The translations under genes were made by a program, and so were the position numbers. From assembly GCA_035530615.1 (NCBI GenBank), contig DATKUL010000001.1, positions 434,001-498,000 on the forward strand: a DNA stretch of 64,000 nucleotides, written 5' to 3'. The stretch comes from Candidatus Paceibacterota bacterium (lineage in GTDB: Bacteria > Actinomycetota > Actinomycetes > Nanopelagicales > Nanopelagicaceae). Of the stretch, positions 5,556-30,814 are shown piece by piece; the first letter of the stretch is position 1; each line of letters starts with the position of its first letter. The notes beneath the pieces are model-generated. The model was not told the origin of the DNA, searched no databases, and worked only from the letters and a program-made list of their open reading frames with translations.

Positions 5556-5559
5556 TTCG

Positions 5560-8397: not shown

Positions 8398-9266
8398 ATA
8401 AGTCCCAGGATCTGCCGAGCGCGTTTGAGCATTGCGGTATCAACTAGGTTTGCATCTACAACAAGGGCACCAGAACTTTCGTCTCTCTCATCCCATCGCT
8501 CAATGACTCGTTTTGCCCACTCGCTTTCATCCTCACTTGGTGCGAAACTTTGATCAACTACCTCCAGTTGATTTGGATGAATGCAGAGCTTTCCACCAAA
8601 TCCCATTTGCGAGGCATAGAGAGACCGATCTCTAAGTCCCTCGGTATCTGTTAGCGTGAAGTGTGGGGTGTCGATTGGCGCTCCAAGGCGTGAATGCACA
8701 CTGGCCATGACCAGAGCCGCCATCGCAAGGTCGGTATTGGGACCAGCGGGAGAGTAGGCAATTCGAAGATCTGTATAAAGATCGGCGCCACCGAAGGCAA
8801 GCCGCTGAACTCGGGTAGGTATGCTCGATGAATTGAGTAGTCCTAGTACTCCCGCGCTAGATTCAATAAGACCAATCGTCGGTAGCACTCTTTTGCTTCC
8901 GCTCTCCACCTCCAACTGAGTGAGAGCTTGGTCAGTAGCAATTGCGTTGTCCCCTGGGACAAACTTGGGAAGAACAATTCCATCAACTTCAAGCTCGAGC
9001 GCTTTACGGACGTCTTGGTTAAATTCGTGAGAACCAAATGCGTTCACACGGATAAATATAAGTGGCCCATCTGTAACCCTCAGTGGGAGACCAAGCGCCG
9101 TTCGTGCCACAGACTTATTTTCTGATCGAACCGCATCTTCAAGATCGATAATGACCGCATCGGCCTTTGATTGAAGTGCCTTCGCAATACGATCTGGCTT
9201 ATCTCCAGGAACAAAGAGAAAAGTACGCGCAATTCGAATGCGCCAATTCCTCTCTTCCGTATTCAC
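8394..9266 (-). CDS. HpcH/HpaI-CitE-like CoA-ester lyase
   Basis: A 290-aa TIM-barrel lyase of the citrate lyase beta / malyl-CoA lyase family. It cleaves or condenses hydroxyacyl-CoA esters such as citramalyl-CoA, malyl-CoA or beta-methylmalyl-CoA. Visible motifs are FVPGDKPDRI, IDLEDAV, the arginine in FIRVNAFGS, the metal glutamate in GLIESSAG, the metal aspartate in GGADLYTDL and GKLCIHPNQ near the C-terminus. It starts with GTG, overlapping the M19 dipeptidase stop by one base, and closes the 12-gene peptide operon. Together with the adjacent CoA-transferase it suggests breakdown of a C5 dicarboxylic CoA ester. Confidence 0.85.
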   Translation of the reverse strand: MNTEERNWRIRIARTFLFVPGDKPDRIAKALQSKADAVIIDLEDAVRSENKSVARTALGLPLRVTDGPLIFIRVNAFGSHEFNQDVRKALELEVDGIVLPKFVPGDNAIATDQALTQLEVESGSKRVLPTIGLIESSAGVLGLLNSSSIPTRVQRLAFGGADLYTDLRIAYSPAGPNTDLAMAALVMASVHSRLGAPIDTPHFTLTDTEGLRDRSLYASQMGFGGKLCIHPNQLEVVDQSFAPSEDESEWAKRVIERWDERDESSGALVVDANLVDTAMLKRARQILGLI

Positions 9267-10456: not shown

Positions 10457-10457
10457 T

Positions 10458-13076: not shown

Positions 13077-13889
13077 TTAGTTGCTCGCTTCTCCATAGTT
13101 GAAAGTTGTTACGCATCCACCATCCACGGTAACGATGGATCCGGTCATAAATGAAGCACCAGGAGATGAAAGAAAGACCGCAACATTTCCGACTTCGACC
13201 GGTTGCGCCTGTCGGCCCAACGGCTGCATTCCCGCTGCTTTCTCACGACGATCTGTTGCTGCCTTGAATTCTTCGGCGCTCAAAGTGGGGCCACGACGAC
13301 CAAGGCTGGTGTCAATGTAACCCGGGCAAATGGCGTTCACGCGGATCTGATCTGGCCCGTAATCAACTGCCAACTGACGGGTGAGGTTGACGATCGCACC
13401 TTTGGTCGCACAGTAGGCGGGAGCCTTCGGCGCACCCACTAGACCATATGTTGATGCGATATTCACGATACTGCCACCACCTGCTTTAAGAAAGTACGGG
13501 ATTGTGTACTTAGTCATGAAGAAAGTTCCGACGAGATTGACATCAACAACCCGCGAGAACTCATCTGCATTAACCTCGTGAAGGCGCTTCTGCGCTCCAC
13601 CAATTCCCGCATTGTTGACGAGAATATCGATGGTTCCGAAAGTTGAAACCGTATTTTCAACAATACTCTTCACCTGATCTTCGTTGGCGATATCTGCAAG
13701 TACGAAGATGGCTTCGCCCCCTGCGTCTCTAATCTCCTTGACGGTTCGTTGACCATCTTCAACCAAAGTATCAGAGACACAGACCTTTGCGCCGGCTGCT
13801 GCCATCGCTTTAGCCGTTGCCCGACCGATTCCGTTTCCGGAACCGGTGACGATGGCAACTTTGCCGTCAAGAACTTGTGCAACTCCCAT
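13077..13889 (-). CDS. SDR-family oxidoreductase
   Basis: A 270-aa classical SDR with the cofactor loop TGSGNGIGR at residues 15-23, NNAGIG and the active-site YCATK. The ORF opens at 13901. The ATG at 13889 has GGAG six bases upstream and lies two bases after the M55 gene's stop, so it is the better start. Sequences of this type are usually annotated as 3-oxoacyl-ACP reductase or glucose 1-dehydrogenase-like, but the annotation is generic. In this operon it might act on a hydroxy- or keto-acid derived from the peptides. Confidence 0.86.
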   Translation of the reverse strand: MGVAQVLDGKVAIVTGSGNGIGRATAKAMAAAGAKVCVSDTLVEDGQRTVKEIRDAGGEAIFVLADIANEDQVKSIVENTVSTFGTIDILVNNAGIGGAQKRLHEVNADEFSRVVDVNLVGTFFMTKYTIPYFLKAGGGSIVNIASTYGLVGAPKAPAYCATKGAIVNLTRQLAVDYGPDQIRVNAICPGYIDTSLGRRGPTLSAEEFKAATDRREKAAGMQPLGRQAQPVEVGNVAVFLSSPGASFMTGSIVTVDGGCVTTFNYGEASN

Positions 13890-13891
13890 TC

Positions 13892-14722
13892 TTAGCTCCA
13901 CTCAACGATGCTGCGAGTGAGGATGACAGTTGTAATGAAACGACGGAAGAGCGCCAAAGGATCCTTATCTGTAATCGCAACTTTCTTTGTACCGGTCTTG
14001 ACGTTGCCTGGAATCCAAGCAGCCATATCTGCAAAATCATTGTTATGGAAGGTGATTTCCAGGGTTGCTGGCAGTTCGATGGAAGGCACTGGAATTGATT
14101 TGAGCTCAGCAATAGACGCCTTTGCCTTTTCAAATATCAAGTCGCACGCTTGATTTGGGTGCATGCTGTCGGCTGCAAAGCGAGTAATGCTCTTCTTTAC
14201 AACTGCTGCCTTAACACCAGGTGACCACATCTTGGTCTCAACTTCAGTGATCTCATCACCCGTAACCAGCACAATAGGCACTCCGTAGGACTGCGCAACA
14301 AGAGCATTGATCCCGGCCTCAGAGACGAATTCACCGTTCAGTCGGATATCTGAAATGGCGCGTGGATTGTACGTGTGTGAAAGGACCGACGCTTCGGCGC
14401 TCATCGAACCGTGATATGAGACGAAAAAGATTGCGTCATAAGAACTATCGAGTCCTTGCATCATGTACATCGGCTTGTGCTTACCCGAAAGGTAGCGAGC
14501 ATTCCCTTCAAGTGAATGCGGTCGAAGATTCTGCATCGAAGAGTGGGAGTCATTGACAAGGAATTCATCTGCTCCAGCTGCCATCGCGCCTTTGATACTT
14601 GCATTCACTTCATTTTGAAGAAGTTCGCGGTAGTAGCCGTATTCGGGATTTCCTGGAATGCATTGACTCCAGTCGACAACTCCTGCGGTGCCTTCCATGT
14701 CGGTTGAAATAAAGATCTTCAT
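13892..14722 (-). CDS. D-aminopeptidase, M55 family (DppA-like)
   Basis: A zinc D-aminopeptidase related to Bacillus DppA, which releases N-terminal D-amino acids such as D-Ala from small peptides. From the ATG at 14722 (AAGGAGA upstream, 4-base ATGA overlap with the preceding gene) it is 276 aa. The metal-binding D8 and E10 are in FISTDMEG, and further family motifs are LVNDSHSS and FFVSYHGS. An ORF start at 14839 is open but overlaps the neighbour and is rejected. It is encoded directly after the peptide ABC transporter and the Ntn asparaginase, so its substrates are probably imported peptides with D-residues. Confidence 0.9.
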   Translation of the reverse strand: MKIFISTDMEGTAGVVDWSQCIPGNPEYGYYRELLQNEVNASIKGAMAAGADEFLVNDSHSSMQNLRPHSLEGNARYLSGKHKPMYMMQGLDSSYDAIFFVSYHGSMSAEASVLSHTYNPRAISDIRLNGEFVSEAGINALVAQSYGVPIVLVTGDEITEVETKMWSPGVKAAVVKKSITRFAADSMHPNQACDLIFEKAKASIAELKSIPVPSIELPATLEITFHNNDFADMAAWIPGNVKTGTKKVAITDKDPLALFRRFITTVILTRSIVEWS

Positions 14723-15678
14723 ATCTTTCTCCTTGGTCGAAATTCTGGAGCGGTGGAATGCTCGGTCATGAGCGTGTAAGTCGAACCTTCCATACCGGAA
14801 GCCCCGCCATGTCGGCCATCCTGGGTCAACGAGAGGCAACGAAGTTCAGCACGGAAATTATCAGGTAACGTGCGAGCATCAAGGAGCGCATTGACACAGG
14901 CAGTTTCGGGATCTTGTCCCGTTCGCAAATTTTCAACGATTGTTCGCGCAGTACCAGCTCGTAAAGCCAGTTCGCCACGACCAGTACATGCAGCAGCTCC
15001 GTAGCGGATATCAGAGTAATTACCTGCGCCAGCAATTGCGGAATCCCCTACTCGCCCCGGGTGCTTATAGGGATACCCACTCGTGCTGACGCCGCATACA
15101 AGTTCGCCAGATTGATCAAGGGCGATGATATTGATTGTTCCCCATGGGCCGGCGTGCGGTGCCATGCGCTTTACCAATTCGAGAGAGGCAAGCCGGTATC
15201 GCTCATCACCGCTCGTTGCCTTCGTGTTTTCACCCTCGATAGATTCAGAGTTAGCTGTCTCGAGCTGCTTGAGCCAGAGTGCATTGGATTCAGGAGTGAG
15301 TAAATCTGCGGTAATGAATCCAAGATACTCAGCAAATGCTTCAGCTCCCTCACCAACAAGAAGTGAATGCTGTGGCAGCTGTTCCATTACTTTGCGAGCA
15401 ATTGAAATTGGATTTGGGTAATTCTTAACGGCCGCGACTGCTCCAAAGGCTCGCGTTGATCCAACCATGATGGATGCGTCAAGTTCGACGATGCCGCGCG
15501 CGTTTGGGAGCCCGCCCGTACCGACATAGTGATCGGCTAAATTATCTTCACATAATCTAAGTCCACGTTCGACGGCATCGAGCGCGCTTCCGCCGGTTCG
15601 AAGTATTTCCATTGCTGCCGGTATTCCAGCTTCACTGCGCTCGCTTCCAATAATGATTGGACTAAATTTCGCCGCCAA
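14719..15678 (-). CDS. Ntn-hydrolase asparaginase (aspartylglucosaminidase-like)
   Basis: An N-terminal-nucleophile hydrolase of the glycosylasparaginase/isoaspartyl-peptidase family, 319 aa. The precursor is expected to cut itself before T181 (WGTINIIALD), giving alpha and beta subunits. The substrate-binding block CGVSTSGYPYKHPGRVGDS and the glycine stretch AIAGAGNYSD are conserved. Most enzymes with this last block cleave N4-(GlcNAc)-asparagine; others remove beta-aspartyl residues from isopeptides. The start is a TTG with AAGGGG six bases upstream. It lies between the ABC transporter genes and the D-aminopeptidase, which favours a peptide substrate. Confidence 0.86.
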   Translation of the reverse strand: MAAKFSPIIIGSERSEAGIPAAMEILRTGGSALDAVERGLRLCEDNLADHYVGTGGLPNARGIVELDASIMVGSTRAFGAVAAVKNYPNPISIARKVMEQLPQHSLLVGEGAEAFAEYLGFITADLLTPESNALWLKQLETANSESIEGENTKATSGDERYRLASLELVKRMAPHAGPWGTINIIALDQSGELVCGVSTSGYPYKHPGRVGDSAIAGAGNYSDIRYGAAACTGRGELALRAGTARTIVENLRTGQDPETACVNALLDARTLPDNFRAELRCLSLTQDGRHGGASGMEGSTYTLMTEHSTAPEFRPRRKI

Positions 15679-15706: not shown

Positions 15707-16672
15707 TCAAACCAGGAGGCAGGCTGCCTGATGGGTTCCTTCCACTAGATTCAAACTTGGATCAGTTGTTGCACATTCAGCAATCGCAACGGGGCAACGG
15801 CCACGGAAGCGGCATCCAACCATTGCGCTCTTAATGGACTGTAGTTCGCCATTTGGAGCAGATGAAATCTTTGAGCCCGTGGTCATCTTTGGTACAGAAC
15901 TCAAGAGAAGCTTTGTATAGGGGTGTGAAGGATTATTAAAGACCTCTTCGGTCGGCCCAACTTCGACAATGCGTCCTAAGTACATAACCGCGATGCGATC
16001 GCTAACTTGACGTACAACGGCAATGTTGTGCGAAATAAAGAGCATGGTCAGTCCGAGGTCCCGCTTTAGATCCATCAGGAGGTTTACAACAGATGCTTGA
16101 ACGGATACATCCAGCGCTGAAACAACTTCGTCTGCGATCAACACCTCAGGTTCTAGGGCAAGTGCCCGAGCGATACCAATGCGTTGACGTTGCCCACCGG
16201 AAAATTGGCGCGGGTACGACTGGAGTGCATCCATCGGCAACCCGACGAGGGCAAGCAGTTCGAGAGAGCGCGCTTCAACTTTCTCTTTGGGTACAAGATT
16301 ATGGAAGGAGAGCGCTTCTCGAAGAACTTCGCCTACGGTCAAACGTGGATTAAGCGATGAGAATGGGTCCTGAAAGACCATCTGCACGCTACGGCGCTCA
16401 TCAAGAGTGCGCTCCGCAGTCACTTTTTTTCCCTTGAGCGAGATAAAGCCCTCCGAAGCGGTATAAAGACCAACGAGTGTCCGACCCAGAGTTGATTTAC
16501 CACACCCGGATTCACCAACGAGGCCAAGAGTCTCACCTGCTCTGAGATCGAGCGTTACGCCATCAATTGCCGGAACATTAAAAATTTCTTTCTTGCGCAA
16601 GCGATCAACAATTGATTGGCGCTTTGCAAAGTGCTTTACAACATTCTCGGCTGAAAGTACGGCTTGACTCAT
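15707..16672 (-). CDS. Peptide ABC transporter ATP-binding protein (DppF/OppF-like)
   Basis: One of two ATPases of a peptide importer, 321 aa from the ATG at 16672, which overlaps the stop of the first ATPase gene by four bases (ATGA). Walker A is GESGCGKST, the signature is LSGGQRQRI in the form [15 protein letters not shown], and Walker B is EVLIADEV. The C-terminal oligopeptide-transporter extension is present with the cysteines of [15 protein letters not shown] longer ORF up to 16825 is a read-through into the neighbour. It energises the permeases encoded just upstream. Confidence 0.93.
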
Positions 16673-17679
16673 TCTGTTACACCACTTCCTGACGCAGCCG
16701 TAGCCCATTCTTTGTGGTCTGTAGATTTGAAACACGCGCTCTGTGAATTCTCGATAGGAGCGAGATTCGGTTCTGCAGAAAGACACTGCTCTTCTACAGC
16801 GAAGCAACGTGGGGCAAATGGACAACCCAATACCGGCTTGGTGAGGTTTGGGGCTTCACCGGAGATCGTGAAGAGACGGTGCACTGCCATATCTGGATCT
16901 GGGGCGGCTTTGAGAAGAGAAAATGTATACGGATGTGTTGGAATTTTAAAGGTTCCTTGCACATTCCCCGATTCAACGAAACGTCCCGCGTACATAACTT
17001 TGATGTCGTCGCACAATTCGTTTACTACAGCAAGATCGTGAGTAACAAAAACTATTCCAAGGCCGGAATTATGGCGAAGTTCATTCAGGAGTCGAAGGAC
17101 CTGTGCCTGGATTGTCACATCGAGGGCGGTAGTTGGCTCATCGCAGAAGAGAATCTTAGGACTTCCAGAAAGTGCAATTGCGATTGCAATACGCTGGCGC
17201 AAACCACCAGAGAGTTGGTGCGGATAAAGATCGTACCGAGACTCCCCATCGGTAATTCCTACTCGTTCCATCAATGAGAGTGCGATCTGCTTCGACTCTT
17301 CTTTACTCTTGCCAAGACGATAGCGTGGAACTTCTGAGACTTGCTCCCCGACCTTGATAACTGGGTTAAGGGCGGCAATTGCATCTTGGAAAATCATTCC
17401 GGTGTTATGCGAAAGCAGCGCCCGCCGGCTCTTATGGTCAAGCGTTGAAACATCCTTGCCTTCGACGAAAATCGAGCCCGAGGAAACGCGGGCATTGCTT
17501 GGTAAGAGTCCAAGAATTGCCTTGAGAGTGATTGATTTGCCGCTACCCGACTCGCCAACGATACCGATGGAATCCGCTGAATCCACATCAAATGAGACTC
17601 CACGAATCGCCTGGAGCAGACCGCGGTCAGTCTTGATCTCGACCGAAAGGTCCCTGACGGAAATGAGCGGAGTACTCAT
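16669..17679 (-). CDS. Peptide ABC transporter ATP-binding protein (DppD/OppD-like)
   Basis: The other ATPase of the peptide importer, 336 aa. Walker A is GESGSGKSI, the signature is LSGGLRQRIAIAIAL, and Walker B is ILFCDEPTTALD. The carboxy-terminal oligopeptide extension has the cysteine pattern CPFAPRCFAVEEQC. Its ATG follows the stop codon of the permease gene with no gap, and its end overlaps the partner ATPase by four bases. It functions at the inner face of the membrane as a heterodimer with the DppF-like protein. Confidence 0.93.
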   Translation of the reverse strand: MSTPLISVRDLSVEIKTDRGLLQAIRGVSFDVDSADSIGIVGESGSGKSITLKAILGLLPSNARVSSGSIFVEGKDVSTLDHKSRRALLSHNTGMIFQDAIAALNPVIKVGEQVSEVPRYRLGKSKEESKQIALSLMERVGITDGESRYDLYPHQLSGGLRQRIAIAIALSGSPKILFCDEPTTALDVTIQAQVLRLLNELRHNSGLGIVFVTHDLAVVNELCDDIKVMYAGRFVESGNVQGTFKIPTHPYTFSLLKAAPDPDMAVHRLFTISGEAPNLTKPVLGCPFAPRCFAVEEQCLSAEPNLAPIENSQSACFKSTDHKEWATAASGSGVTE

Positions 17680-18477
17680 TTAGCGCTCCAGACGTGCGAC
17701 AAGTCCATCGCCAATGAGTGAGAGTGAGAATCCGACGTAAACGACCATAAGTCCTGGAAGTGTGGAGAGCCACCATTGATTCATGATGTAGGACTGACCT
17801 TCTTGAATCATTGAACCCCACTCGGCAGTTGGCACTGGAACACCCAGTCCGAGATAGCCGAGAGAGACGATCGCCAAGATGCTCAGGACGATATCGCTCA
17901 TCGCAAAAACAATTGATTGGGAAATCACATTCGGCAGGAGATGACGTCGAAGAATGCGAAAGGTCGGAAGGCCCGTGAGCCGGGCAGCATGCACGTAATC
18001 TTGCTCTTTTGCAACAAGCACGTTTGCTCGCACAATTCGAGAGTAGGCAACCCACCCCACCAAAGTAATTGCCACGATAATGCTTTTTATGCCTGGCCCG
18101 AAGACGAAGATAAGTGCAATCGCCAGAACATAAAATGGGAAAGCAATCACGGTATCTACAATGCGCATGACCACTGAGTCAGTTGCACCACCTAGCCATC
18201 CGGTTAGCAGACCAAGCGAAACGCCAATGAGGTAAGGGAGAATGACCGCCAGAAGCCCAATTGTCAGGTCAACCCGAGCTCCGTAAATGAGGCGAGTGAA
18301 GACATCGCGACCCAGTGGGTCCGTGCCGAGCCAGTGATGAGAGCCAGGTCCTAATAGGGTGTTCAATAAATCTTGTTCGTTCGGATCGTATGGGGAAATC
18401 AGTGGTGCGATAATTGCAACAAGTACGAGAAACCCGAGAAGTCCTGTACCAATATATAAAGTCTTTTTGGACTTCAC
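17680..18477 (-). CDS. Peptide ABC transporter permease (DppC/OppC-like)
   Basis: A 265-aa membrane subunit of the peptide importer, with about six hydrophobic segments. The family N-terminal periplasmic signature is LGTDPLGRDVFTRLIYGARV and the EAA-like coupling loop is HAARLTGLPTFRILRRHLLP. It starts with GTG overlapping the DppB stop by four bases (GTGA). It forms the translocation pore with the DppB-like subunit. Confidence 0.92.
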   Translation of the reverse strand: MKSKKTLYIGTGLLGFLVLVAIIAPLISPYDPNEQDLLNTLLGPGSHHWLGTDPLGRDVFTRLIYGARVDLTIGLLAVILPYLIGVSLGLLTGWLGGATDSVVMRIVDTVIAFPFYVLAIALIFVFGPGIKSIIVAITLVGWVAYSRIVRANVLVAKEQDYVHAARLTGLPTFRILRRHLLPNVISQSIVFAMSDIVLSILAIVSLGYLGLGVPVPTAEWGSMIQEGQSYIMNQWWLSTLPGLMVVYVGFSLSLIGDGLVARLER

Positions 18478-19415
18478 TTCACCACCACCCGAGGGTCAAG
18501 AGCGGCATGGATCAGGTCAGTAACTAAATTGACGATGACAACAACAAAGGCAAAGTACAACGTCACTCCTTGCACGATCGGATAGTCACGACGTGAAATG
18601 GCATCAATCATGAGGGACCCGGTTCCGGCGATCGCAAAGACGCGTTCTACCACAACCATCGAACCAACGAGGTAGGCAATATTAATACCGAGAACTGTTA
18701 CTGATGCGATCAAAGAATTTCGAAGCACGTGAACGCGCGTAATGCGTGCAGTTGAGATTCCTTTTGCACGCGCAGTTAAAACGTAATCCGAGTCAAGAAT
18801 TTCCAACATACTCGCGCGCAAACTGCGAATAAGAATTGGAGATAACAGGATCGCAATAGTCAGTGCTGGAAGGAAAATCGAATGAAGGTGTTCCGGGAAA
18901 GTATTACCAAAACCGCCTACGGGAAAGAGGGGATACTTGAGCCCGAGAAATAGAATCAGCATCACACCAACCCAGACTTGCGGCATTCCCAGACCGATGA
19001 TTGGAATGGCACGAACAAGTTGATCACGTAGCGCGCCGCGCTTGGAAGCCGCAAGAATGGAGAGTGGGAGAGCAATCACAATGGAGAGAATGACCCCTCC
19101 GGTCAATAGCATTCCGGTCTCAGGGAGCCGTCCCAAAATAAGGCTTGTGACCGATTGCTTATTGTAAAAACTGGTGCCCAGTGAGCCGTGCAAGAGATCC
19201 CAGACAAAATTTAGGTACTGCACGAACATCGAACGATCGAGGCCGAGTTGGTGTCGGACGATCAGAGCCTTCGCAGGAGTGGAATTCTGTCCAAGAATGA
19301 CATCTGCGGGATCCCCAGGAATCGCGTGAACAATGAGAAATACGGCGATAGAAATACCGAAGAGAACGGGCAACATCTGAAGGAGTCTTTTACCTACGTA
19401 GGCTAAGTAACTCAA
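18474..19415 (-). CDS. Peptide ABC transporter permease (DppB/OppB-like)
   Basis: A 313-aa membrane subunit with the classic beginning YVGKRLLQMLPVLFGISIAVF and the loop LARAKGIS-type segment LTARAKGISTARITRVHVLRN. About six transmembrane segments are visible. The start is a TTG at 19415 with GGGTGA upstream. It follows the binding-protein gene by 89 bases, in which no strong terminator is visible, so it is part of the same operon. Confidence 0.92.
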   Translation of the reverse strand: MSYLAYVGKRLLQMLPVLFGISIAVFLIVHAIPGDPADVILGQNSTPAKALIVRHQLGLDRSMFVQYLNFVWDLLHGSLGTSFYNKQSVTSLILGRLPETGMLLTGGVILSIVIALPLSILAASKRGALRDQLVRAIPIIGLGMPQVWVGVMLILFLGLKYPLFPVGGFGNTFPEHLHSIFLPALTIAILLSPILIRSLRASMLEILDSDYVLTARAKGISTARITRVHVLRNSLIASVTVLGINIAYLVGSMVVVERVFAIAGTGSLMIDAISRRDYPIVQGVTLYFAFVVVIVNLVTDLIHAALDPRVVVK

Positions 19416-19504: not shown

Positions 19505-21055
19505 TTAGTTCTTCTTAACGTTTTTCAGGTAGTAGCTGTAGAGCGGGTTCACGGTGAATCCCGTGATGTTGCTACGCCAGGCGTAGGTATAAGGAGGGTT
19601 GAGAGTAAACGCCATAAACGCGTCTTCCGCTGTCTGCTTCTGTACAAATGAGTAAGCAGCCTGACGAACTTTAGGATCAACATTTGTCTGACCCTTCTTG
19701 ATCGCAGCAATTACTTTCTTGTTGACATAACCCGTGTAGTAAGAGTTTGTTCCACCTTCTGGTGCCAAACCAAATGTCAACAACTCGTCCGGGTCAACGA
19801 TATCCATCGTCCAGGCCGTTACAACCATTTGGTAGTTCATGGCCTTTTGGGTGGCGCGAGATACAGTTGGCTCTTGTGCCGTGATTGTCATTGTGATGCC
19901 AATCTTCTTCAAAGCAGCCTGCACAATTGAAGCTGTTAGCTCATGTGTTCTGTTACCACCGCGGATCAAGAGGTCAAGTTTTAGGCCCTTCTTGAACTTA
20001 CTCTGTGCAAGTTCGGCGGCCGCCTTCTTGAGATCATATTGCTGGCCTGGTGTCGTCTTATCGTAAAAGTTAACACTTGGCGCAAGGAATGAGTTTGAAA
20101 TTGTTGCGTTACCTGAGTACAGCACTCTGTTTAGCGCTGCACGATCGATTGCATATGAGATTGCCCGGCGAACATGTACGTCAGCTAGGGCAGGAACCTT
20201 CTGGTTAAAGGCAATGTAGTTTGAAGCTGCCGCAGAGAAAATGCCGACTTTGATCCCTGGCGAAGCCTTGAGAGATGCGACCGTATTAGATGGCGGCTCT
20301 TCGTTGATATCAGCTTGTCCACCCTTGAGCATGAACTCACGAGTGTTGTCATCTGCAACATATTTAAAGGTTACCGAGTTGAGGTATGGCTTACCTGGCT
20401 GCCAGTAATTCTTGTTAGCAACCAACTTGACTTCGGTTCCTGGAGTCCAGCGATCAAGCATGAATGGACCGGTAGCAATTGGATTCTTGAAGAATTCTGC
20501 TTCGGTCTTTCCGTCCAAATTCGCCTTCAGGATCGAATTGCTAAAGCAAGCAAGGTCCGCCAGCAACGGAGCCCAAGGAAATTTTGTCTTGATAATAACC
20601 GTGTCAGCTGACGGCGCAGTGATGGTTTCGATAGCCGTGTTGAGGAAGCCCCAACCGTCTCCACCTGATGCGCGTTCAAGGGAGAACTTGACGTCCGCGG
20701 AAGTCATCGGTGTTCCGTCAGTGAACTTAACATCAGTACGTAGTTTGATGGTCCAAGTTAGTCCATCTTTTGCCACAGTTCCGCTCTTTGCCAGCAATGG
20801 CGTAACGCCTTTACCGTCTTGCTTGTTGTTAAAAAGTGGTTCGTACATTTGCTGTTGGATGAAGATTGAGTCGTTCTGCGGAAATAAAGGATCCAAGGTT
20901 GCCAAATCTTGGTTTCGAACCAAGACCAAGTCACCCTTAGGTGTTGGGTTTGCTGCATTTGCCGTAATCGGTAATACAACTGTTGTTGCAACCATAAAGG
21001 CCGCAAGAAGAGCAACCAACATTTTATTCTTTGGTGCCATATCGATAGTTCCCAT
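19505..21055 (-). CDS. Peptide ABC transporter substrate-binding protein (SBP family 5)
   Basis: The extracytoplasmic receptor of the importer, 516 aa. Its N-terminus is a plain signal peptide (basic MAPKNK, hydrophobic core, ending near ITANAA). No lipobox cysteine is present, which is unusual for a Gram-positive binding protein. Family 5 features follow: LATLDPLFPQND, the repeated MTSADVKFSLERA, and FMLKGGQADINEEP. It is the first gene of the 12-gene minus-strand operon. The start could also be the ATG at 21040. Ligand class is peptide or a similar compound, judging from the peptidases downstream. Confidence 0.9.
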   Translation of the reverse strand: MGTIDMAPKNKMLVALLAAFMVATTVVLPITANAANPTPKGDLVLVRNQDLATLDPLFPQNDSIFIQQQMYEPLFNNKQDGKGVTPLLAKSGTVAKDGLTWTIKLRTDVKFTDGTPMTSADVKFSLERASGGDGWGFLNTAIETITAPSADTVIIKTKFPWAPLLADLACFSNSILKANLDGKTEAEFFKNPIATGPFMLDRWTPGTEVKLVANKNYWQPGKPYLNSVTFKYVADDNTREFMLKGGQADINEEPPSNTVASLKASPGIKVGIFSAAASNYIAFNQKVPALADVHVRRAISYAIDRAALNRVLYSGNATISNSFLAPSVNFYDKTTPGQQYDLKKAAAELAQSKFKKGLKLDLLIRGGNRTHELTASIVQAALKKIGITMTITAQEPTVSRATQKAMNYQMVVTAWTMDIVDPDELLTFGLAPEGGTNSYYTGYVNKKVIAAIKKGQTNVDPKVRQAAYSFVQKQTAEDAFMAFTLNPPYTYAWRSNITGFTVNPLYSYYLKNVKKN

Positions 21056-21264: not shown

Positions 21265-21969
21265 TTAGAAAAGTGAGTGACCGCCGTCAATCGACAGACA
21301 CTGACCGGTGACCCAGTCGGAAGCTTCAGATGCAAAGAAGGAAACACCATTTGCGATGTCTTCGGCTTTCCCTAATCGACGAGTGGCAATACCACTGAGT
21401 AACTTTGCTTGACCTTCAGAGCCATAACTTTCCCACTGAGCGATCGTTGAAGGATTCGAAAGAACAAATCCAGGAGCGATGCAGTTGACAGTGATGTTGT
21501 ACTGGCCAAGTTCGTAAGCCATCTGACGAGTAAAACCAATCTGAGCAGCCTTTGATGACGCGTAGGCCTGAATACCAGTCAAACTCACGCTGCGACCAGC
21601 TCCTGAGGAGATATTGACGATACGTCCCCACTTATTGGCTTTCATTCCAGTAACGACGGCACGCGTGCAGAGAAAAGTTGTCTGCATATTGGCGTCAAAA
21701 ATCTGTTGCCAGGCATCATCGGTGACTTCATCCAATGGTTTATGTGTCTGCCCTACGACTCCACCAGCACAGTTGACCAGAATATCAACCTGCCCAATTT
21801 TTTCGAAATAAGCTTTTACTTCAGCTGAATTTGAGAGATCTGCTTGATCACGATCAACTCCATGGACTGTATGGCCGCTTGCTCTAAGAGAATCAATTAT
21901 CGCACTGCCCATGCCATGTGTGGCGCCCGTCACAACTGCAATTCGCGGTTCAATCACGCCGCTATACAA
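21265..21969 (-). CDS. SDR-family oxidoreductase
   Basis: A 234-aa SDR with the cofactor loop VTGATHGMGS, the motif NCAGGV in place of NNAG, and the active site YASSK. The start is a TTG at 21969. A GTG at 21957 is also possible, and neither has a strong ribosome-binding site. It lies 209 bases upstream of the peptide-binding protein gene on the same strand and is divergent from the reductase-amidase fusion gene. The substrate is unknown. Confidence 0.84.
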   Translation of the reverse strand: MYSGVIEPRIAVVTGATHGMGSAIIDSLRASGHTVHGVDRDQADLSNSAEVKAYFEKIGQVDILVNCAGGVVGQTHKPLDEVTDDAWQQIFDANMQTTFLCTRAVVTGMKANKWGRIVNISSGAGRSVSLTGIQAYASSKAAQIGFTRQMAYELGQYNITVNCIAPGFVLSNPSTIAQWESYGSEGQAKLLSGIATRRLGKAEDIANGVSFFASEASDWVTGQCLSIDGGHSLF

Positions 21970-22056: not shown

Positions 22057-24207
22057 ATGCAACTTACTATTATCGGCGCAGGTGCAATTGGCGGAACCAT
22101 TGGTGCTCATATGATTCGCGCTGGCCATGACATAACTTTCTGTGATGTTGACGAGGACCATGTCAATGCAATGAACGAACACGGCATCACGATTGAAGGC
22201 CCCGTAGAAAATTTCACCGTGAAAACCAAGGCAATTCTTCCATCACAACTTCCAGCGACTCTTCATAATGTTGCCGTTGCAGTTAAGAGTCACCATACGA
22301 AGAGCGCTGCTGAATTGCTCCGTGGTCGACTTGCGCCAGACGGATTTGTCGTCACGTTACAAAACGGTTTGACTGCGCAAGATCTCTCTGATGTCGTTGG
22401 AGCCGACCGAGTCATCGTGAGTTTCGTAAACTTCGGTGCGGACTACATCGCTCCAGGAAGAATCATGCAAGGCAATATCGGCACTTTCCGAGTTGGCGAA
22501 CTCACCGGAAATAAAATTACTCCTCGCGTTCTTGGACTTGTCGATGCTTTCCCATACGCAGAAGCAACCGCAAACATCCTGGGATTTCTCTGGGGTAAAG
22601 AGGCATACGGCGCAATGCTCTATGCAGGCGCCACTTCTGATCTTTCTATTGCAGATCACCTTGAAAATCCTAAATACCGACCACTGATGCTGGCCATAGC
22701 GCGTGAAGTGCTAGCGCAAGCTCCAGTGACACCTGAGGCCTTTGATGGCTTTGATCCAAAAGATCTCGATGGATCTTTAGACCGCCTCGTTACCTTTAAC
22801 CGTAAATCCGCAAAAACACATAGCGGAATTTATCGAGATCTCACTGTGCGTAAGCGCAAAACGGAAGTCGATGACTTACTACGAGATCTCAAAGGCCCGC
22901 TTACAAATTTCGTGGGTGCAATTATTCATTCGATTGAACGAGGAGAGCGAATCTGTGAAATCGCTAACCTTGATCTTCTTGCAGCATATGAGCGCGCATT
23001 TCGGCTTGGCGCCCCGCTCAATGCAATTTCACATTTGATTTCGGCACCCGAGCGCTCACTTAATGGTCCATTGCTAGGGGTCGCGGTCGGAGTCAAAGAC
23101 ATCATTGATATCAAGGGGCAACCGCGAGGCAATGGCAATCCTCACGACATGAAATCTTTGCCAGCAACAAAGGATGCGCCAGTAATCGCACAACTTCGTG
23201 CCCTTGCCGCTGATGTCTTTACTACGACGTCACTCCTTGAATATGCAGCCGGTGCCACGCATCCCGAGGTTCCGGAAGCAATGAATCCATATAACTCCCA
23301 CCGCACCGCAGGTGGTTCAAGTGGCGGTTCGGCAGCCCTCGTTGGTGTCGGCGTTTGTGACGTAGCACTCGGAACCGATACTGGTGGATCCATACGTATC
23401 CCTGCGCATTATTGTGGGACGGTCGGTTTCAAGCCCAGCTATGGCTCGATCTCACTTGAAGGCGTTACCCCACTTTCACCAACCTTTGATCACGTGGGCT
23501 TGCTGGCAAAAGATCTCGCAACGACCACAAAGGTCTTCTCGGCGCTAATGGGTGGTCTCAAAGCAGAGGAAAGGTCGCAGATCAAGGGCCTCAAAGTTGG
23601 AATCGTCAAAACTCATTTCGAACTCGCGCAGTTGGAGAAGGATGTGGCCGAGTCAATTCGAGACGTCATCGCAAAGTTGCAGAATGAGGGCGCAGAAATT
23701 ATTGAAGTAGACGACCGTGCTTTTCAAGAACTCGAAAAAACTTTCGGGGACATTCTTCACTTTGAAGCCTGGCAAGTGCATGGCGAGAAAGTGAAATCAG
23801 ATCCAACTCACTTTGGACCTGAGACTTTGAGGCTCTTTAAATCGGCACAATCCATCACCGAAGATGCGTACAAGAAGGCATCGGCACGTCGCATCGAGCT
23901 TCTTCCGAACGCTCTCAAAATTTACGAAGGTATCGATGTCTTGCTCACGCCAGTTGCGCCATATGTTGCGCCACCAACAACACCTCCCATGGATACCCCG
24001 GAAGGTGTTGTCGAAGGAGCCTACACAAGCATCTTTAACCTCACGGGTGATCCCGCAATTTCGATTCCCTGCGGATTGAACTCCGAAGGTTTGCCGATTG
24101 GAGTCCAACTGGCAACCGCTAAAGGGACAGATATGCAGCTCTTATCCATTGCTCAAGCCATCGAAGAGTTACTGAACTTTCACCTTGTGAGTAAAAGAGA
24201 GCACTAA
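22057..24207 (+). CDS. Ketopantoate reductase-like/amidase fusion protein
   Basis: A 716-aa protein joining two enzymes in one uninterrupted frame. Residues about 1-325 are a 2-dehydropantoate reductase (ApbA/PanE)-like domain: Rossmann loop IIGAGAIGGTIG, the catalytic-type lysine in LWGKEAYG and the C-terminal helical domain. Residues about 330-710 are an amidase-signature domain with K347 (VGVKDIID), the cis-serine loop GGSSGGS and nucleophile S445 (GTDTGGSIR). The ATG at 22057 is preceded by AGGTGG; a GTG at 22039 is in frame but less likely. Both active sites appear intact. The amidase domain may release a 2-oxo- or hydroxy-acid that the reductase handles, but this is inference. Confidence 0.87.
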   Translation: MQLTIIGAGAIGGTIGAHMIRAGHDITFCDVDEDHVNAMNEHGITIEGPVENFTVKTKAILPSQLPATLHNVAVAVKSHHTKSAAELLRGRLAPDGFVVTLQNGLTAQDLSDVVGADRVIVSFVNFGADYIAPGRIMQGNIGTFRVGELTGNKITPRVLGLVDAFPYAEATANILGFLWGKEAYGAMLYAGATSDLSIADHLENPKYRPLMLAIAREVLAQAPVTPEAFDGFDPKDLDGSLDRLVTFNRKSAKTHSGIYRDLTVRKRKTEVDDLLRDLKGPLTNFVGAIIHSIERGERICEIANLDLLAAYERAFRLGAPLNAISHLISAPERSLNGPLLGVAVGVKDIIDIKGQPRGNGNPHDMKSLPATKDAPVIAQLRALAADVFTTTSLLEYAAGATHPEVPEAMNPYNSHRTAGGSSGGSAALVGVGVCDVALGTDTGGSIRIPAHYCGTVGFKPSYGSISLEGVTPLSPTFDHVGLLAKDLATTTKVFSALMGGLKAEERSQIKGLKVGIVKTHFELAQLEKDVAESIRDVIAKLQNEGAEIIEVDDRAFQELEKTFGDILHFEAWQVHGEKVKSDPTHFGPETLRLFKSAQSITEDAYKKASARRIELLPNALKIYEGIDVLLTPVAPYVAPPTTPPMDTPEGVVEGAYTSIFNLTGDPAISIPCGLNSEGLPIGVQLATAKGTDMQLLSIAQAIEELLNFHLVSKREH

Positions 24208-24219: not shown

Positions 24220-25140
24220 CTAGCGAAGCGCCAGACCAACCAAAATCCCACCTGCAACGACTGCAGGACTACTGGTCTGGAAAAGAACGGTTCCATCTTG
24301 CGGGGCCCGAATCTCGGTAATGGACTTTCCCCAGGGATCACCCAAAGTGCCTAACAAATCTGCCGCTTTCACATCGGAACCGGTCTTATGTGCCGGTTGC
24401 CACCAGCCCCCGCTTTCCGCGCGCAACCAATTCCAGTCGTCATAGAGGATATGTCCTCGCTCTGGCAAAGGATCGCCGCTTAGAACTCCGAGAACACGGG
24501 CAAGATTTCGCAGTCCGGTTAAATGTAATTTGACGGCCGCTGGATCGAGAATCCCATTCTCTCCTGATTCTGCTATGAACGCAGGAATTCCAATTGCAGA
24601 TGCTGCACCAGATGTACTGCCTGCCACAACGATACCTGCCGCACGTTGTCGAACTATATGTTTGATTCCATAAGCCCTTGCCATCCAAAGCGACTTCTCC
24701 TCGACAGGTGATTCTTCAAAGATTGAGAAGGGTTCGAGTGCTTCTGGAATATCTCCGGCATGCATATCCAGGAGGTAGTCCGAGCCCTTGATAATCTTTT
24801 CGAAGATATGGAAGGCATAAATATCCGTAAACGATCCATTTTCCTTTCCCGGAAATGCCCGGTTGAGGTTCTGATTGTCGACAGGAATCACGAAAGGGAC
24901 TCGAGCCCAAAATGCCAAGACATTTACAATCGGCATGACAGTGATACGACCAATTACCTCTTGATCATTGATCTCCGCTACAAATTCCCTGGCGGCAGCG
25001 ATCGAGGAATATTCCGCGCCGTGGATTCCCGCAATGACTGTGAGATGCGGCCCAGGTTTTGCACCAACAATCTCAAAATAAGGTACGTCGATTCCTGGAC
25101 CATCCGTCCTAGGAATCGATAACACATGCTGTGAGATCAT
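24220..25140 (-). CDS. Succinylglutamate desuccinylase/aspartoacylase-family hydrolase
   Basis: A zinc deacylase of the AstE/AspA (M14-like) family, 306 aa. The metal ligands are visible in AGIHGAEYSS (His and Glu) and LLDMHAGD (His). The C-terminal half looks like the beta-barrel region found in this family, ending in IRAPQDGTVLFQTSSPAV. It starts directly after the stop of the alpha/beta hydrolase gene and converges on the fusion gene 12 bases away. It should remove an acyl group from an N-acylated amino acid or a similar amide. The substrate is unknown. Confidence 0.83.
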   Translation of the reverse strand: MISQHVLSIPRTDGPGIDVPYFEIVGAKPGPHLTVIAGIHGAEYSSIAAAREFVAEINDQEVIGRITVMPIVNVLAFWARVPFVIPVDNQNLNRAFPGKENGSFTDIYAFHIFEKIIKGSDYLLDMHAGDIPEALEPFSIFEESPVEEKSLWMARAYGIKHIVRQRAAGIVVAGSTSGAASAIGIPAFIAESGENGILDPAAVKLHLTGLRNLARVLGVLSGDPLPERGHILYDDWNWLRAESGGWWQPAHKTGSDVKAADLLGTLGDPWGKSITEIRAPQDGTVLFQTSSPAVVAGGILVGLALR

Positions 25141-26001
25141 CTAGGCCTGCTTTACTGCCAGATGAGGAAGGTAATCAGCGATGAATTTCCGCTGTACCTC
25201 TTGGAACAAGTCGTACTCTTCGAACTGTGGTGAGTGACCCGACTTTTCAAAGATGACCAAACGTGAGTTTGGAATACCATCAGCAATAGTTTGCGCGGAA
25301 GAGACCGGCGTAACCCAGTCTGTCCGACCCACGGTGACCAGGGTTGGAGCTTTGATCGTTCCGAGAACGGGCTTCAAATCGTAGTTAGGCTTGTTATGAG
25401 TAAAACAGTAGTTGTGTGCCTCATGGTGATAAGTACCGGCCTCAACCCGGGCGGCTGACTTCTCTGCGTCGTAATGGAAGTCATAGAGTGGAATCAGTTC
25501 TGCCCAACAAGCCTTCAGATCTGCGTCATCTCGTATATGGCCAGTCCAGTAACGATTGAAGTTATCCCAGTTGATTTCCACGCGATTCTGGTTCTTTGCA
25601 TTCTCTTCAAGGGTTGTAAAGTTATTGTTGTCAGCCGAGGTATCGCGAAGCAAGACGGCCTCAGTGTGCTCTGGATAGCGGACCGCGTACTCAAGTGAGA
25701 TAAATCCGCCATACGAGCCGCCCGCTACAACAATCTTCTCAGCGCCAATCCACTTACGAAGACCATCGACGTCCGCTGCCCACTGTTCATGAGAATAAGG
25801 TCCAACAATTTCACTATGACCGCAACCACGCGCATCAAAGACGATTACTTGGAAAATATCTTGCAACGGACCGTATGTAGCTTTGGGTTCGTTCAGGTTC
25901 CCGATTCCACCACCACCGTGATGCGCGATAAGAACTGGTTTTCCTTTTCCCTCACCCAAGACTTCAACATTGAGTTTGGCACCGTTAATTTCCACAATCA
26001 T
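25141..26001 (-). CDS. Alpha/beta hydrolase (proline iminopeptidase-like)
   Basis: A 286-aa hydrolase with the nucleophile elbow GGSYGG, the acid residue in VGRTDWVTP and the histidine in KSGHSPQFEE. The oxyanion-hole region is AHHGGGGIG. The start has GGGGGA a few bases upstream. It is first in a two-gene unit with the aspartoacylase-like enzyme, just downstream of tRNA-Lys. Relatives are peptidases of family S33 or amide/ester hydrolases. With the neighbouring deacylase it suggests degradation of small amides or peptides. Confidence 0.84.
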   Translation of the reverse strand: MIVEINGAKLNVEVLGEGKGKPVLIAHHGGGGIGNLNEPKATYGPLQDIFQVIVFDARGCGHSEIVGPYSHEQWAADVDGLRKWIGAEKIVVAGGSYGGFISLEYAVRYPEHTEAVLLRDTSADNNNFTTLEENAKNQNRVEINWDNFNRYWTGHIRDDADLKACWAELIPLYDFHYDAEKSAARVEAGTYHHEAHNYCFTHNKPNYDLKPVLGTIKAPTLVTVGRTDWVTPVSSAQTIADGIPNSRLVIFEKSGHSPQFEEYDLFQEVQRKFIADYLPHLAVKQA

Positions 26002-26398: not shown

Positions 26399-27187
26399 TC
26401 AGATATCCGCAATCTGCCAAAATGCATTTGGGATCTGGCTGCTTGAGGAGACATCGAAGCGAAGTTGAACCATATCGACGCGGTATACCCCTCGTGCGAC
26501 TTCGAAGGGGATCTCTTCCCCGTTTTCCAGGTGATATTCCGTGCAGAGGGTAACAAAAACGGCACCCTGAACGGGCACCTGAAGTTGTTCCGCCTCCCAA
26601 GCACTACAAAAACTCGTCTCGATTCCGACGCGAGTACGTGTGAGTCCTACTTCGCGCATTTGCCGTGTCGATTCTAGAATGAAAGGTAATTTTTTACGTA
26701 AGTGTTTTCGATAAGGCTCAGCTGCCCCAAGGGGAAAGAAACTATCTAAAAGCGCGACTGGGGTTCCATGCACTCGCAGAAGAGTCATAACTCGGATGAT
26801 CTTTGCCTTGGCCTGTAACTCAAGTTTTTCTCTAACCCATTTAGGTGGCAACTCTTCCTGGTAATCAAGTACCAAAGATTCATGGTCTGGAATGGGATTA
26901 GCCATTAGCCGACTAAGGCCACCAACTCGGTGTTCAAGTTTCGGAGGACTAACAAAGGTACCCCGACCTCGAATACGACGAAGCTGCCCATCCTGCTCTA
27001 AAACAGAGAGGGCTTGGCGAACCACGGTGCGACTGACTTGATAGGTTTCGCAAAGACTCGGTTCTGACGGGATCATTTGCCCAACGGCCCATGCGCCCAG
27101 CTCAATCTTTTCCTTCAACACCTCCTGCAGTTGGAAGTACAACGGGATCGGACTACTTCTCCTTAACTCGTCTTTCGCCACCAGCAA
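26399..27187 (-). CDS. GntR-family transcriptional regulator, UTRA type
   Basis: A HutC-branch GntR regulator of 262 aa. The winged helix has IPSEPSLCETYQVSRTVVRQ at residues about 40-60, with the wing RRIRGRGTFVS. The rest is a UTRA ligand-binding domain. It follows the iron alcohol dehydrogenase gene by 35 bases on the same strand and probably regulates the MBL-permease-dehydrogenase operon. An in-frame stop lies just upstream, so the start must be the TTG at 27187 or a nearby later codon. No good ribosome-binding site precedes it. Confidence 0.85.
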   Translation of the reverse strand: MLVAKDELRRSSPIPLYFQLQEVLKEKIELGAWAVGQMIPSEPSLCETYQVSRTVVRQALSVLEQDGQLRRIRGRGTFVSPPKLEHRVGGLSRLMANPIPDHESLVLDYQEELPPKWVREKLELQAKAKIIRVMTLLRVHGTPVALLDSFFPLGAAEPYRKHLRKKLPFILESTRQMREVGLTRTRVGIETSFCSAWEAEQLQVPVQGAVFVTLCTEYHLENGEEIPFEVARGVYRVDMVQLRFDVSSSSQIPNAFWQIADI

Positions 27188-27222
27188 AGTATGTCAGGTT
27201 TGAGGAGTTGCCTCTCTATCCG

Positions 27223-28440
27223 CTACTCACCCTTCGCGTTGTATTCCAATTCTCGAACGAACATATCTCGAAATTCAACAACGCCAGCTGTACGTGGATT
27301 CGATGGAGTCGATGTATTAGCAAAAGCCTTTTGGGCTAGAACATCTAGATCTTTCTCATCTATGAGAGAGGCGAGGGTGGGAATACCGATGCGCTTATTC
27401 AATTCACGCACGTAGGTGATGGCAGCATTGGCAGCAGTTTCATCATCCATTTCGAAGGTCTTTATTCCGAAGGCATTGGCGAGCCTTGCGTATTTCTCGC
27501 GAGATACGGGCAAGTTGTACTCCATGATCATTGGCAGACCAATCGCACAGCACTCCCCGTGCGGGTGGTCATATAGCGCCCCAACCGCTTCAGCAATTGA
27601 GTGGGTTCCTGAGACGTCGGTGATACCTACCGCGAGACCCGCAACCAGACTGGCTTGCATCATTCCGCACCGTGCTTCAATGTCGCCTCCATCCTTCACG
27701 GCTCTCTCGAGGTACATCGCGATCAGTCGGGCTCCTTCCAGAGCCATCCCATCAGAGGCAGGAGTGTCCAAGCGACATTGCAAGGAGTCTATGGAATGAC
27801 TGAGTGCATCCATACCGGTAGATGCGGTGATCCGTGATGGCACAGAGAAAGTTAGGTCTGGGTCAACAAGAGCTAGCCGTGGACAGATGCGTGGGTCAAA
27901 GAGATTCATCTTTTTCTTACGTACCGTGTCCAAGATTATTGATGACGGCGAAACTTCGCTTCCGGTGCCAGCCGTTGTTGGGATTGCAATCATTGGTATT
28001 GGATCGTGCTGGAGGGCGCCAAAATCCTCCCAATCGCGCGGATGACCGCCATTAGTAAGGAGCACGGCAATGCACTTGCCCGTGTCAATCGGAGAACCCC
28101 CACCAATTCCAACAATCAATTGGATTCCCTGAGAACGCGCCAACTCAGCGCCTTCAATACAGTGAATGTCACGAGGGTTTGAAAGAACTTTGTCGAACAT
28201 GGTTACGGTCAGACCAGCCGACTCAAGAGCAGTAACGATAGGAGCAACTAAACCTGTCGAGTAAACTCCGGGATCGGTCACGACCATCACCCTGCTCGCG
28301 CCAAACCCCTTGACTTCTCCAGCAAGTGTTGACGTAACTCCACGTCCATACTGAACTCGAGTTGGCATATTAAAGGTGCCATCAGCTGCGACACCGACTC
28401 CGGTTCGCGATAAGGCGGGATGTATTGGATGTTCAGACAT
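27223..28440 (-). CDS. Iron-containing alcohol dehydrogenase
   Basis: A group III (Fe-ADH) dehydrogenase of 405 aa. The dinucleotide-binding region contains GIGGGSPIDTGK, and AIPTTAGTGSEVSP is the standard second motif. The metal-binding residues are in TGMDALSHSIDS and in GALYDHPHGECCAIGLP. It probably interconverts an alcohol and an aldehyde or ketone, or reduces a maleylacetate-like compound. The ATG at 28440 has AAGGG six bases upstream and is preferred to the GTG at 28443. It follows the NCS1 permease directly in the operon. Confidence 0.88.
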   Translation of the reverse strand: MSEHPIHPALSRTGVGVAADGTFNMPTRVQYGRGVTSTLAGEVKGFGASRVMVVTDPGVYSTGLVAPIVTALESAGLTVTMFDKVLSNPRDIHCIEGAELARSQGIQLIVGIGGGSPIDTGKCIAVLLTNGGHPRDWEDFGALQHDPIPMIAIPTTAGTGSEVSPSSIILDTVRKKKMNLFDPRICPRLALVDPDLTFSVPSRITASTGMDALSHSIDSLQCRLDTPASDGMALEGARLIAMYLERAVKDGGDIEARCGMMQASLVAGLAVGITDVSGTHSIAEAVGALYDHPHGECCAIGLPMIMEYNLPVSREKYARLANAFGIKTFEMDDETAANAAITYVRELNKRIGIPTLASLIDEKDLDVLAQKAFANTSTPSNPRTAGVVEFRDMFVRELEYNAKGE

Positions 28441-28442
28441 CA

Positions 28443-29885
28443 CTAACCCTTCACTTTACTTGAGGATTTACGAAATCGAGAGGATGCCAGCATGTAGTAG
28501 ATACCGGCCCCCAGTATCAGTCCGACAAATGGAGAAATGTCGGCACCGCCAAGGTAGTCCATTGCAATAAATCCCTGGAATTTCGCAGTGTTAGCAGTCA
28601 ATGCACCCGCGACAACTCCGACAATCAGGGCAATCATCGCCGCCCAGTTAACACCTCTGGTGTACCAATAACTTCCACCCTTTGTAAGTAGCAAGTCTTC
28701 ACTCACGTAATTACCTTTACGAAGGAAAAAGTCCACCATGAAAATTCCTGCCCATGGTGCAAGGAGTATTACGAGCATGGAAAGGAACTGAGTGAAAACA
28801 ATCGAGAAATCATAAATGAATAACGCTATACAGGCCAAAGCAACGGTAATCACTGCATCCACGAAAACACTCTTATATCGTTCAATTCGAACTCCGATTG
28901 CGAGTAGCGAAAGTCCGCTCGAATAACTATTCATTACATTGTTTGCAATAACTCCCGCCATCATGACGATCAGAAATGGGAAGAGAAACCAACGTGGAAG
29001 TATGGAGGGTAAATTCTTAATTGGGTCAGATGTATCAACCAAAGTGCCGAGCACTACGCCCAGTCCTCCAAATAGACAACCAGGAATCGCCGTGGCAAGT
29101 GTGACCCATCCTACGATGGCACGTCCATCAGTCCGACGCGCTAGATAACGCGAATAATCGGAGGCATAGTTCACCCAACTAATTGCACCAGCACCAAGAA
29201 CAGCGGTCAGTCCAAGGAACCACGTTGAAACCGTATTTGCCGCCGCAAGATCGCCGCCCGAGTACCCCCAATTAACTTTTGGAACTAGCAAGATTCCCAT
29301 CACGATAGTGAGACCTGTGAGGACGTACGCCAACCACTTCTGCGCGACTACAAGAGTCGCGTGCCCAAGAATCGGAATAACGAAGGTGAGGAACGCCATC
29401 AACACCAGAAATGGGGCAAGAACCCATTTGGCAGTATGAATTCCGAGTTGATCAAGTAACGTGCGAAGAGCAAGTGTGCCCAAAATGATATTTACGGTCT
29501 CCCAACCTAAAGTAGCCGCCCAACTAAATATTGACGGAACCATATTTCCGCGAAGACCAAATGGAGCACGACTGACGGTAAGGGCAGCAGTGCCGGCCCG
29601 TGGTCCAGGAAGGCTGCAGATGCCCACAAGGACAAAAGCTAAGTTTCCGACAATCACGACGCTTAGGCCCTGCCAAATGTTGAGACCAAAAAGAATGAGG
29701 ACTCCACCCACAATCATGTTGATAAAGGTCGAATTGGCAGAGAACCATGGCCAGAAGAGTTCTTTGGGGGTTCCATGGCGGTCAGTATCAGGAATGATGT
29801 CTATACCGTGGGTTTCTATTTTGCCGAAAGCGTCAGCAACCTTGTGATCGATGTCGTGATTGTTGGCAGCCTCATCTTTATTCAT
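28443..29885 (-). CDS. NCS1-family permease (purine/cytosine type)
   Basis: A 480-aa membrane transporter of the nucleobase:cation symporter-1 family with about 12 hydrophobic segments. The TM1 motif FWPWFSANSTFINMIVGG and the TM8 region NNVMNSYSSGLSLLAIG resemble purine-cytosine permeases. It overlaps the MBL gene's stop by four bases (ATGA). NCS1 members import nucleobases, allantoin, hydantoins or pyridoxine. The alcohol dehydrogenase and MBL hydrolase next to it suggest that its substrate is degraded rather than salvaged. Confidence 0.88.
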   Translation of the reverse strand: MNKDEAANNHDIDHKVADAFGKIETHGIDIIPDTDRHGTPKELFWPWFSANSTFINMIVGGVLILFGLNIWQGLSVVIVGNLAFVLVGICSLPGPRAGTAALTVSRAPFGLRGNMVPSIFSWAATLGWETVNIILGTLALRTLLDQLGIHTAKWVLAPFLVLMAFLTFVIPILGHATLVVAQKWLAYVLTGLTIVMGILLVPKVNWGYSGGDLAAANTVSTWFLGLTAVLGAGAISWVNYASDYSRYLARRTDGRAIVGWVTLATAIPGCLFGGLGVVLGTLVDTSDPIKNLPSILPRWFLFPFLIVMMAGVIANNVMNSYSSGLSLLAIGVRIERYKSVFVDAVITVALACIALFIYDFSIVFTQFLSMLVILLAPWAGIFMVDFFLRKGNYVSEDLLLTKGGSYWYTRGVNWAAMIALIVGVVAGALTANTAKFQGFIAMDYLGGADISPFVGLILGAGIYYMLASSRFRKSSSKVKG

Positions 29886-30814
29886 CCTGTACCCACCTTT
29901 TCATTAGTAGTTGCTTGGCCGGGAAGATATATTGAGAATTCTTCAAAGAGCGCTTCTCGCACCAATTGACCAGAGCAGTCTCGGTTTATCCTAAATTCGA
30001 CTTTCCCATCGAGGAGATCCTGGGCACCTTCTGAAACATCACGAAGAAAATATGGCAAAGTTGAATATCGCACCCAATGGTGCACAAGCACGGCGTGAAT
30101 ATCCGGAATCAATGCGGACAATCGTTTGGCGGATTGAGCAAAGTCCACAACATTTGACTCCGGCCACTGAAGGTAGATAGCGCCCGTACTAATTGCATCA
30201 CCCGCAAAAAGAAGGCCATCCGGCTCGAGCAAGAAAGCAACATGATCTGGCGAATGTCCCGGCGTTGCAATTACTTTCAACTCACGCCCACCCAGGTCAA
30301 CCACGTGTCCATCGGCGAGAACTCCACTTGCCTTACTTCCAGGGATTTGCCATGTGTTGTTCGTGCCCTTGATGGGAAATGGACGAGGTTCATCAGCTGG
30401 AGCAAGCGAGAAGAAAAACGATCGGTCTGATTCAATATAGGTAGGAAGGGCCTGTTCCATCTTCTCTACGTAATCCAGATACTCGACCAGCACCTCCCGC
30501 GGTACATCTTTTGCAATAATTGGGACGCCATCAGGATGAATCAAAATTTGATCAAACTCGTGATTCCCACCGATGTGATCAAAATGCGAATGAGTATTGA
30601 GCACGAGGATAGGAAGATCCGTAATGGCTTCCACAACTGGGCGGATTGGTCGGACACCCAATCCAGAATCAATGAGCACCGCTCTGGCCGAACCCACGAC
30701 AAGCCAAGTATTTACGTGAGGAGGCTCTCCCAGCAGCCATATTCCCGCGGCCACTTCGCGCACACGGAACCAGCCCCCAGCCGCCTTGAAAATCTTGTCG
30801 CTCCGCAGTCGCAT
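29882..30814 (-). CDS. Metallo-beta-lactamase-fold hydrolase
   Basis: A 310-aa binuclear-metal hydrolase. The metal-binding motif HSHFDH is at residues 75-80, followed by GGNHEF, a second histidine region ATPGHSPDHVAF and FAGDAIS. Members cleave thioesters, lactones, esters or phosphonates. It is the first gene of the four-gene operon behind the promoter at 30860-30888. The ATG has GGGTGA upstream. The substrate is unknown; lactone or acyl-ester hydrolysis is likely given the dehydrogenase downstream. Confidence 0.85.
   Translation of the reverse strand: MRLRSDKIFKAAGGWFRVREVAAGIWLLGEPPHVNTWLVVGSARAVLIDSGLGVRPIRPVVEAITDLPILVLNTHSHFDHIGGNHEFDQILIHPDGVPIIAKDVPREVLVEYLDYVEKMEQALPTYIESDRSFFFSLAPADEPRPFPIKGTNNTWQIPGSKASGVLADGHVVDLGGRELKVIATPGHSPDHVAFLLEPDGLLFAGDAISTGAIYLQWPESNVVDFAQSAKRLSALIPDIHAVLVHHWVRYSTLPYFLRDVSEGAQDLLDGKVEFRINRDCSGQLVREALFEEFSIYLPGQATTNEKVGTG

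Follow-up and report, generated by a model that had tools for sequence, protein, structure and literature searches.

Why should a ketopantoate-reductase (KPR)-like dehydrogenase and an amidase be encoded as a single polypeptide? This question is raised by one gene in the 64,000-nucleotide stretch of actinobacterial DNA analyzed here (the window). The frame at 22057-24207 (+ strand) encodes 716 residues, and translation of the open reading frames revealed no internal stop. ApbA (PF02558) was detected at residues 4-150 (E 1.3e-27; 96.7 bits against a gathering cut-off of 22.2) and Amidase (PF01425) at residues 334-696 (E 1.4e-74; 252 bits against a cut-off of 27). We placed the domain boundary by the ends of two separate genes of a Glaciihabitans MAG: the KPR gene ends at the residues corresponding to ANLDLLAAYE of the fusion, and the alignment of the amidase gene begins within the next few residues. 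The KPR-like (PanE/ApbA) N- and C-terminal domains accordingly extend over residues ~1-312 (22057-22992, +), and the amidase-signature domain (residues ~318-716; 23008-24204, +) starts directly after them, tail to head and without a long linker. The first-pass annotation had described these two domains in one frame; the open frame, the Pfam domains and 12 conserved full-length homologues, likewise devoid of internal stops, bear this out, and neither a frameshift nor a stop separates the domains. An AGGTGG-like Shine-Dalgarno sequence stands before the ATG at 22057, which agrees with the starts of the orthologues, the alternative start being a GTG at 22039. The AlphaFold prediction for the fusion, built on six sequences, had a mean pLDDT of 51.8, too low for the model to be used.

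The architecture had been thought not to be a common one, and it is indeed uncommon, although not unique to this genome. In a family-wide search the full-length fusion was found in 10 of 296 species genomes, belonging to five genera, and a contig-end fragment in one further genome among these 296; two more full-length copies come from other families within the class (loci L083 and L084). A search of 396 genomes from across the phylum and a plasmid search yielded no further fusion. An assembly error or artefact was rejected since the fusion is present in 12 genomes. Identity across the homologues ranges from 87% down to 56%. The reductase residues GxGxxG (G7/G9/G12), N103, K181, S256 and E270 and the amidase triad K347, S421 and S445, with its two serines spaced by 24 residues, are invariant in 12 of 12 aligned fusions, in agreement with the initial statement that both active sites are intact. 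Between the window and its closest orthologue, dN/dS was 0.057 in the reductase half and 0.097 in the amidase half; by this estimate both halves are under purifying selection, the reductase half being held more strictly. The invariant catalytic residues and the low dN/dS in both halves indicate that both domains are maintained, and both look catalytically competent. Few actinobacteria carry the fusion, and a literature search returned no description of it or of its gene cluster. Hence, this is a real and conserved combination of two known enzyme families, and apparently an undescribed one.

The KPR-like half shares with PanE/ApbA (PF02558) the fold family, the GxGxxG motif and the positions of the catalytic Lys, Asn, Ser and Glu; K181 aligns with the Lys of the solved enzyme 5ayv. 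It differs, however, by the joined amidase and by a score of 110.7 bits with the PanE model TIGR00745, below the cut-off of 141.35. Moreover, 5ayv has in the same alignment two asparagines beyond the catalytic Lys; in the fusions, Gly185 and Tyr/Phe189 stand in their place. In E. coli PanE, this asparagine pair lies at the ketopantoate site. Judged from its sequence, the KPR half is a distinct subfamily and not a typical PanE. A further difference concerns Asp30 at the end of beta-2, which the fusions share without exception with ten standalone relatives, whereas the aligned solved KPRs have an Arg near this place. An acidic residue at the end of beta-2 in a Rossmann fold favours NAD(H). This single residue suggests that the KPR half is NAD(H)-linked and so, in a catabolic setting, would oxidize its substrate, which makes the direction implied by the name reductase doubtful.

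The amidase half shares the Ser-cisSer-Lys triad and the motifs GGSSGGS and TGGSIRIPA with malonamidase E2, the Thermus amidase 2dc0 and GatA, but its short N-terminus, unlike that of other members of the amidase-signature family, directly follows a KPR C-terminus. All NCBIfam amidase models listed scored far below their cut-offs (the best 245 against 391 bits), and the fusion reached the model cut-off of no named amidase equivalog (GatA, AtzE, allophanate hydrolase, indoleacetamide hydrolase and others). In rhizobial amidase neighbourhoods we found hydantoinase/racemase genes and no KPR gene.

The genes surrounding the fusion read as a cluster for the catabolism of unusual peptides; those for the peptide transporter, the M55, M19 and M20 enzymes, Asparaginase_2, the AstE-like protein, the alpha/beta hydrolase and methylaspartate ammonia-lyase accompany the fusion in varying subsets. 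Divergent from the fusion is an SDR dehydrogenase gene (21265-21969, −) whose homologues (48-50% identity) adjoin standalone KPR relatives in other phyla. The fusion is followed by a gene for an AstE/AspA-type N-acyl amino acid deacylase-like protein (24220-25140, −; PF24827), with a 38% identical counterpart in the D. deserti KPR operon, and by a proline-iminopeptidase-like alpha/beta hydrolase gene (25141-26001, −) that is conserved in the clusters. An oligopeptide-type ABC transporter is encoded by a substrate-binding protein gene (19505-21055, −) and by four permease and ATPase genes (15707-19415, −), assigned from their translations and conserved in the clusters. Also on the − strand are genes for an Asparaginase_2 of the isoaspartyl-peptidase type (14719-15678; PF01112), an M55 D-aminopeptidase (13892-14839; PF04951; the ORF call probably places its start too far upstream), an SDR dehydrogenase (13077-13901), a methylaspartate ammonia-lyase of 413 residues (11829-13070; PF05034/PF07476), an M20 dipeptidase (10458-11822) 46-48% identical to those of Deinococcus KPR operons, a member of the M19 membrane-dipeptidase family (9266-10597; start probably over-long) and an HpcH/CitE-type lyase (8394-9266). 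A CaiB-type CoA-transferase gene (7240-8397) lies on the + strand.

Other genes of the window flank this cluster. Amidohydro_2, glutamine-synthetase-like, SDR, isochorismatase and amino acid permease genes at 1559-7125 seem to belong to a nitrogen-compound pathway of their own. Between the cluster and a Sua5-like gene stand GntR-UTRA, Fe-alcohol dehydrogenase, NCS1 permease and MBL-fold genes (26399-30814); at loci L046 and L053 the alpha/beta hydrolase gene directly adjoins the Sua5-like gene, and the difference in the window is probably due to an insertion or a loss. In one MAG, an N,N-dimethylformamidase beta-subunit-like gene (L044:3075-4655) is found beside the fusion cluster.

The two halves also occur as separate genes. 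In the Glaciihabitans MAG, the KPR gene and the amidase gene share a contig and a strand, with about 9 kb between them; the former is 67% identical to fusion residues 2-315 (66% over 297 residues in local BLAST) and the latter 54-55% identical to residues 307-708. Around them are homologues of the transporter, SDR, alpha/beta hydrolase, asparaginase, M20 and M19 genes of the window. The presence of separate halves in one cluster supports a functional link, or a shared pathway, between them; the arrangement may be a pre-fusion state or a later split. Four genomes of the genus g7 carry a lone amidase without the KPR half, 40-41% identical to the fusion amidase in the three clusters read. In these three (L049, L087 and L088) the lone amidase takes the place of the fusion within the transporter/peptidase cluster.

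The methylaspartate ammonia-lyase gene is closely associated with the fusion. Its product aligned with the solved clostridial enzyme 1kcz over 413 of 413 residues (532 bits), including its catalytic Lys and His. The fusion and the lyase occur together in 10 of the 296 genomes, and each is found without the other in a single genome (Fisher p = 1e-16), both of these genomes being incomplete; the lyase was not found in the genomes with a lone amidase. Joint transfer of one cluster, instead of a shared reaction, could account for this co-occurrence. A search of nine cluster genomes for the glutamate mutase E subunit gave no match; its control matched in one genome only, below the cut-off. The negative result makes it unlikely that the methylaspartate comes from the glutamate mutase route, and an imported source is plausible. 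The small freshwater actinobacterium of the window therefore has the lyase, while no glutamate mutase E subunit is seen in its genome.

Standalone relatives of the KPR half, about 39-46% identical to it, group clearly together. They lie on plasmids of Deinococcus, Rhizobiaceae, Roseobacteraceae, Roseomonas and Caballeronia and are set apart from the other matches, which reach at most 37%. In the KPR tree, the outgroups were badly extracted and the rooting was set aside. Unlike PanE/ApbA, these relatives stand mostly in peptide operons: in annotated Deinococcus and Roseobacteraceae records they adjoin or lie inside operons that encode peptidases and an SDR together with a peptide ABC transporter and a regulator, and a creatininase-family gene is usually present as well. 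The Neorhizobium and Roseomonas plasmid records show neighbourhoods that look different. The KPR, SDR and M20 genes of the Deinococcus/Roseobacteraceae operon are 41-44%, 48-50% and 46-48% identical to those of the window, and the operons of D. deserti and D. peraridilitoris possess, as does the window, amidase and AstE-like genes. In contrast to the window, the genes are unfused and no methylaspartate ammonia-lyase is annotated within the stretches read. The KPR–amidase link is weaker across phyla than within the actinobacteria because the Deinococcus amidase is only ~35% identical to the fusion amidase and groups apart from it. The order in the plasmid operons (L092, L095-L100 and L103) is peptide ABC, regulator, creatininase family, KPR-like and SDR, followed by an M20 dipeptidase or by a polysaccharide deacetylase and an isoaspartyl peptidase; some of the operons also contain RraA and carboxypeptidase M32. 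The literature search yielded no description of this cross-phylum operon.

Taken together, the conservation of two competent domains and the occurrence of their separate homologues in one Glaciihabitans cluster make one shared substrate or pathway the likeliest reason for the fusion. The proposal that the amidase product is passed to the reductase finds support in this respect, but the pantoyl role that went with it is not supported, and the reductive direction is doubtful. In our preferred reading, to which we give a probability of about 45%, the fusion would be a bifunctional catabolic enzyme in which the amidase frees an acid from a modified peptide and the NAD-linked KPR-like domain oxidizes it; the cofactor, the direction, the substrate class and the pathway after methylaspartate are what we infer. 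The neighbouring ABC transporter would import a modified, probably D- or iso-linked, peptide fragment, an amide of which would be hydrolyzed by the amidase-signature domain (Ser445 as nucleophile, with cis-Ser421 and Lys347). The KPR-like domain, with NAD+ and Lys181 as acid/base, would convert the freed 2-hydroxy acid into its 2-oxo form; alternatively, it may act on a hydroxyacyl group that is still on the amide. The remaining molecule would be dismantled by the other enzymes of the cluster, with 3-methylaspartate as one expected product. The latter would be converted by the ammonia-lyase into mesaconate, which may enter central metabolism through CoA-transferase and CitE-type lyase steps.

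The reaction could also run the other way, the amidase yielding a 2-oxo acid (or acting on a 2-oxoacyl amide) and the KPR-like domain reducing it to a 2-hydroxy acid. Known enzymes of the KPR family have mostly been studied as reductases, and the fusions retain the catalytic Lys, Asn and Glu; we nevertheless consider reduction unlikely, as the invariant Asp30 suggests NAD(H) and a catabolic cluster would gain little by reducing a 2-oxo acid. We are similarly doubtful that two activities of one pathway were fused for co-expression only, with neither a common substrate nor channelling. The distance between the Glaciihabitans genes, which are not adjacent, would suit such a fusion, and elsewhere the KPR relatives are commonly followed by an SDR and not by an amidase; against it, the fusion is kept across five genera and three families, and no break-up was seen in the sampled fused genomes.

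The pantoyl-type compound suggested by the first-pass annotation would require a pantothenase-like amidase coupled to a pantoate/ketopantoate oxidoreductase. Pantothenate is itself a hydroxyacyl amide and the KPR half has a family resemblance to PanE, but the missed PanE cut-off, the replaced asparagine pair, the peptide-related cluster and the restriction of the fusion to about 4% of the relatives render this very improbable; the fusion is probably not a vitamin-B5 enzyme. A narrower proposal, that the fusion is dedicated to the catabolism of a freshwater non-ribosomal peptide containing methylaspartate and D-amino acids, such as the cyanobacterial microcystin, appears to us a long shot. It is suggested by the M55, M19, isoaspartyl-peptidase-type and methylaspartate ammonia-lyase enzymes, which would fit the building blocks of such peptides. 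The search for MlrC-type (M81) proteins gave no match, the control genomes being equally silent, and no link of methylaspartate ammonia-lyase to microcystin was found in the literature search.

The fusion joins two enzyme families for which the literature search showed no link. We consider it of moderate interest, chiefly for drawing attention to a new peptide-catabolism cluster: undescribed and probably horizontally shared, this cluster would serve the use of unusual peptides by small freshwater actinobacteria, and through the link with methylaspartate ammonia-lyase the substrate class can be put to the test.
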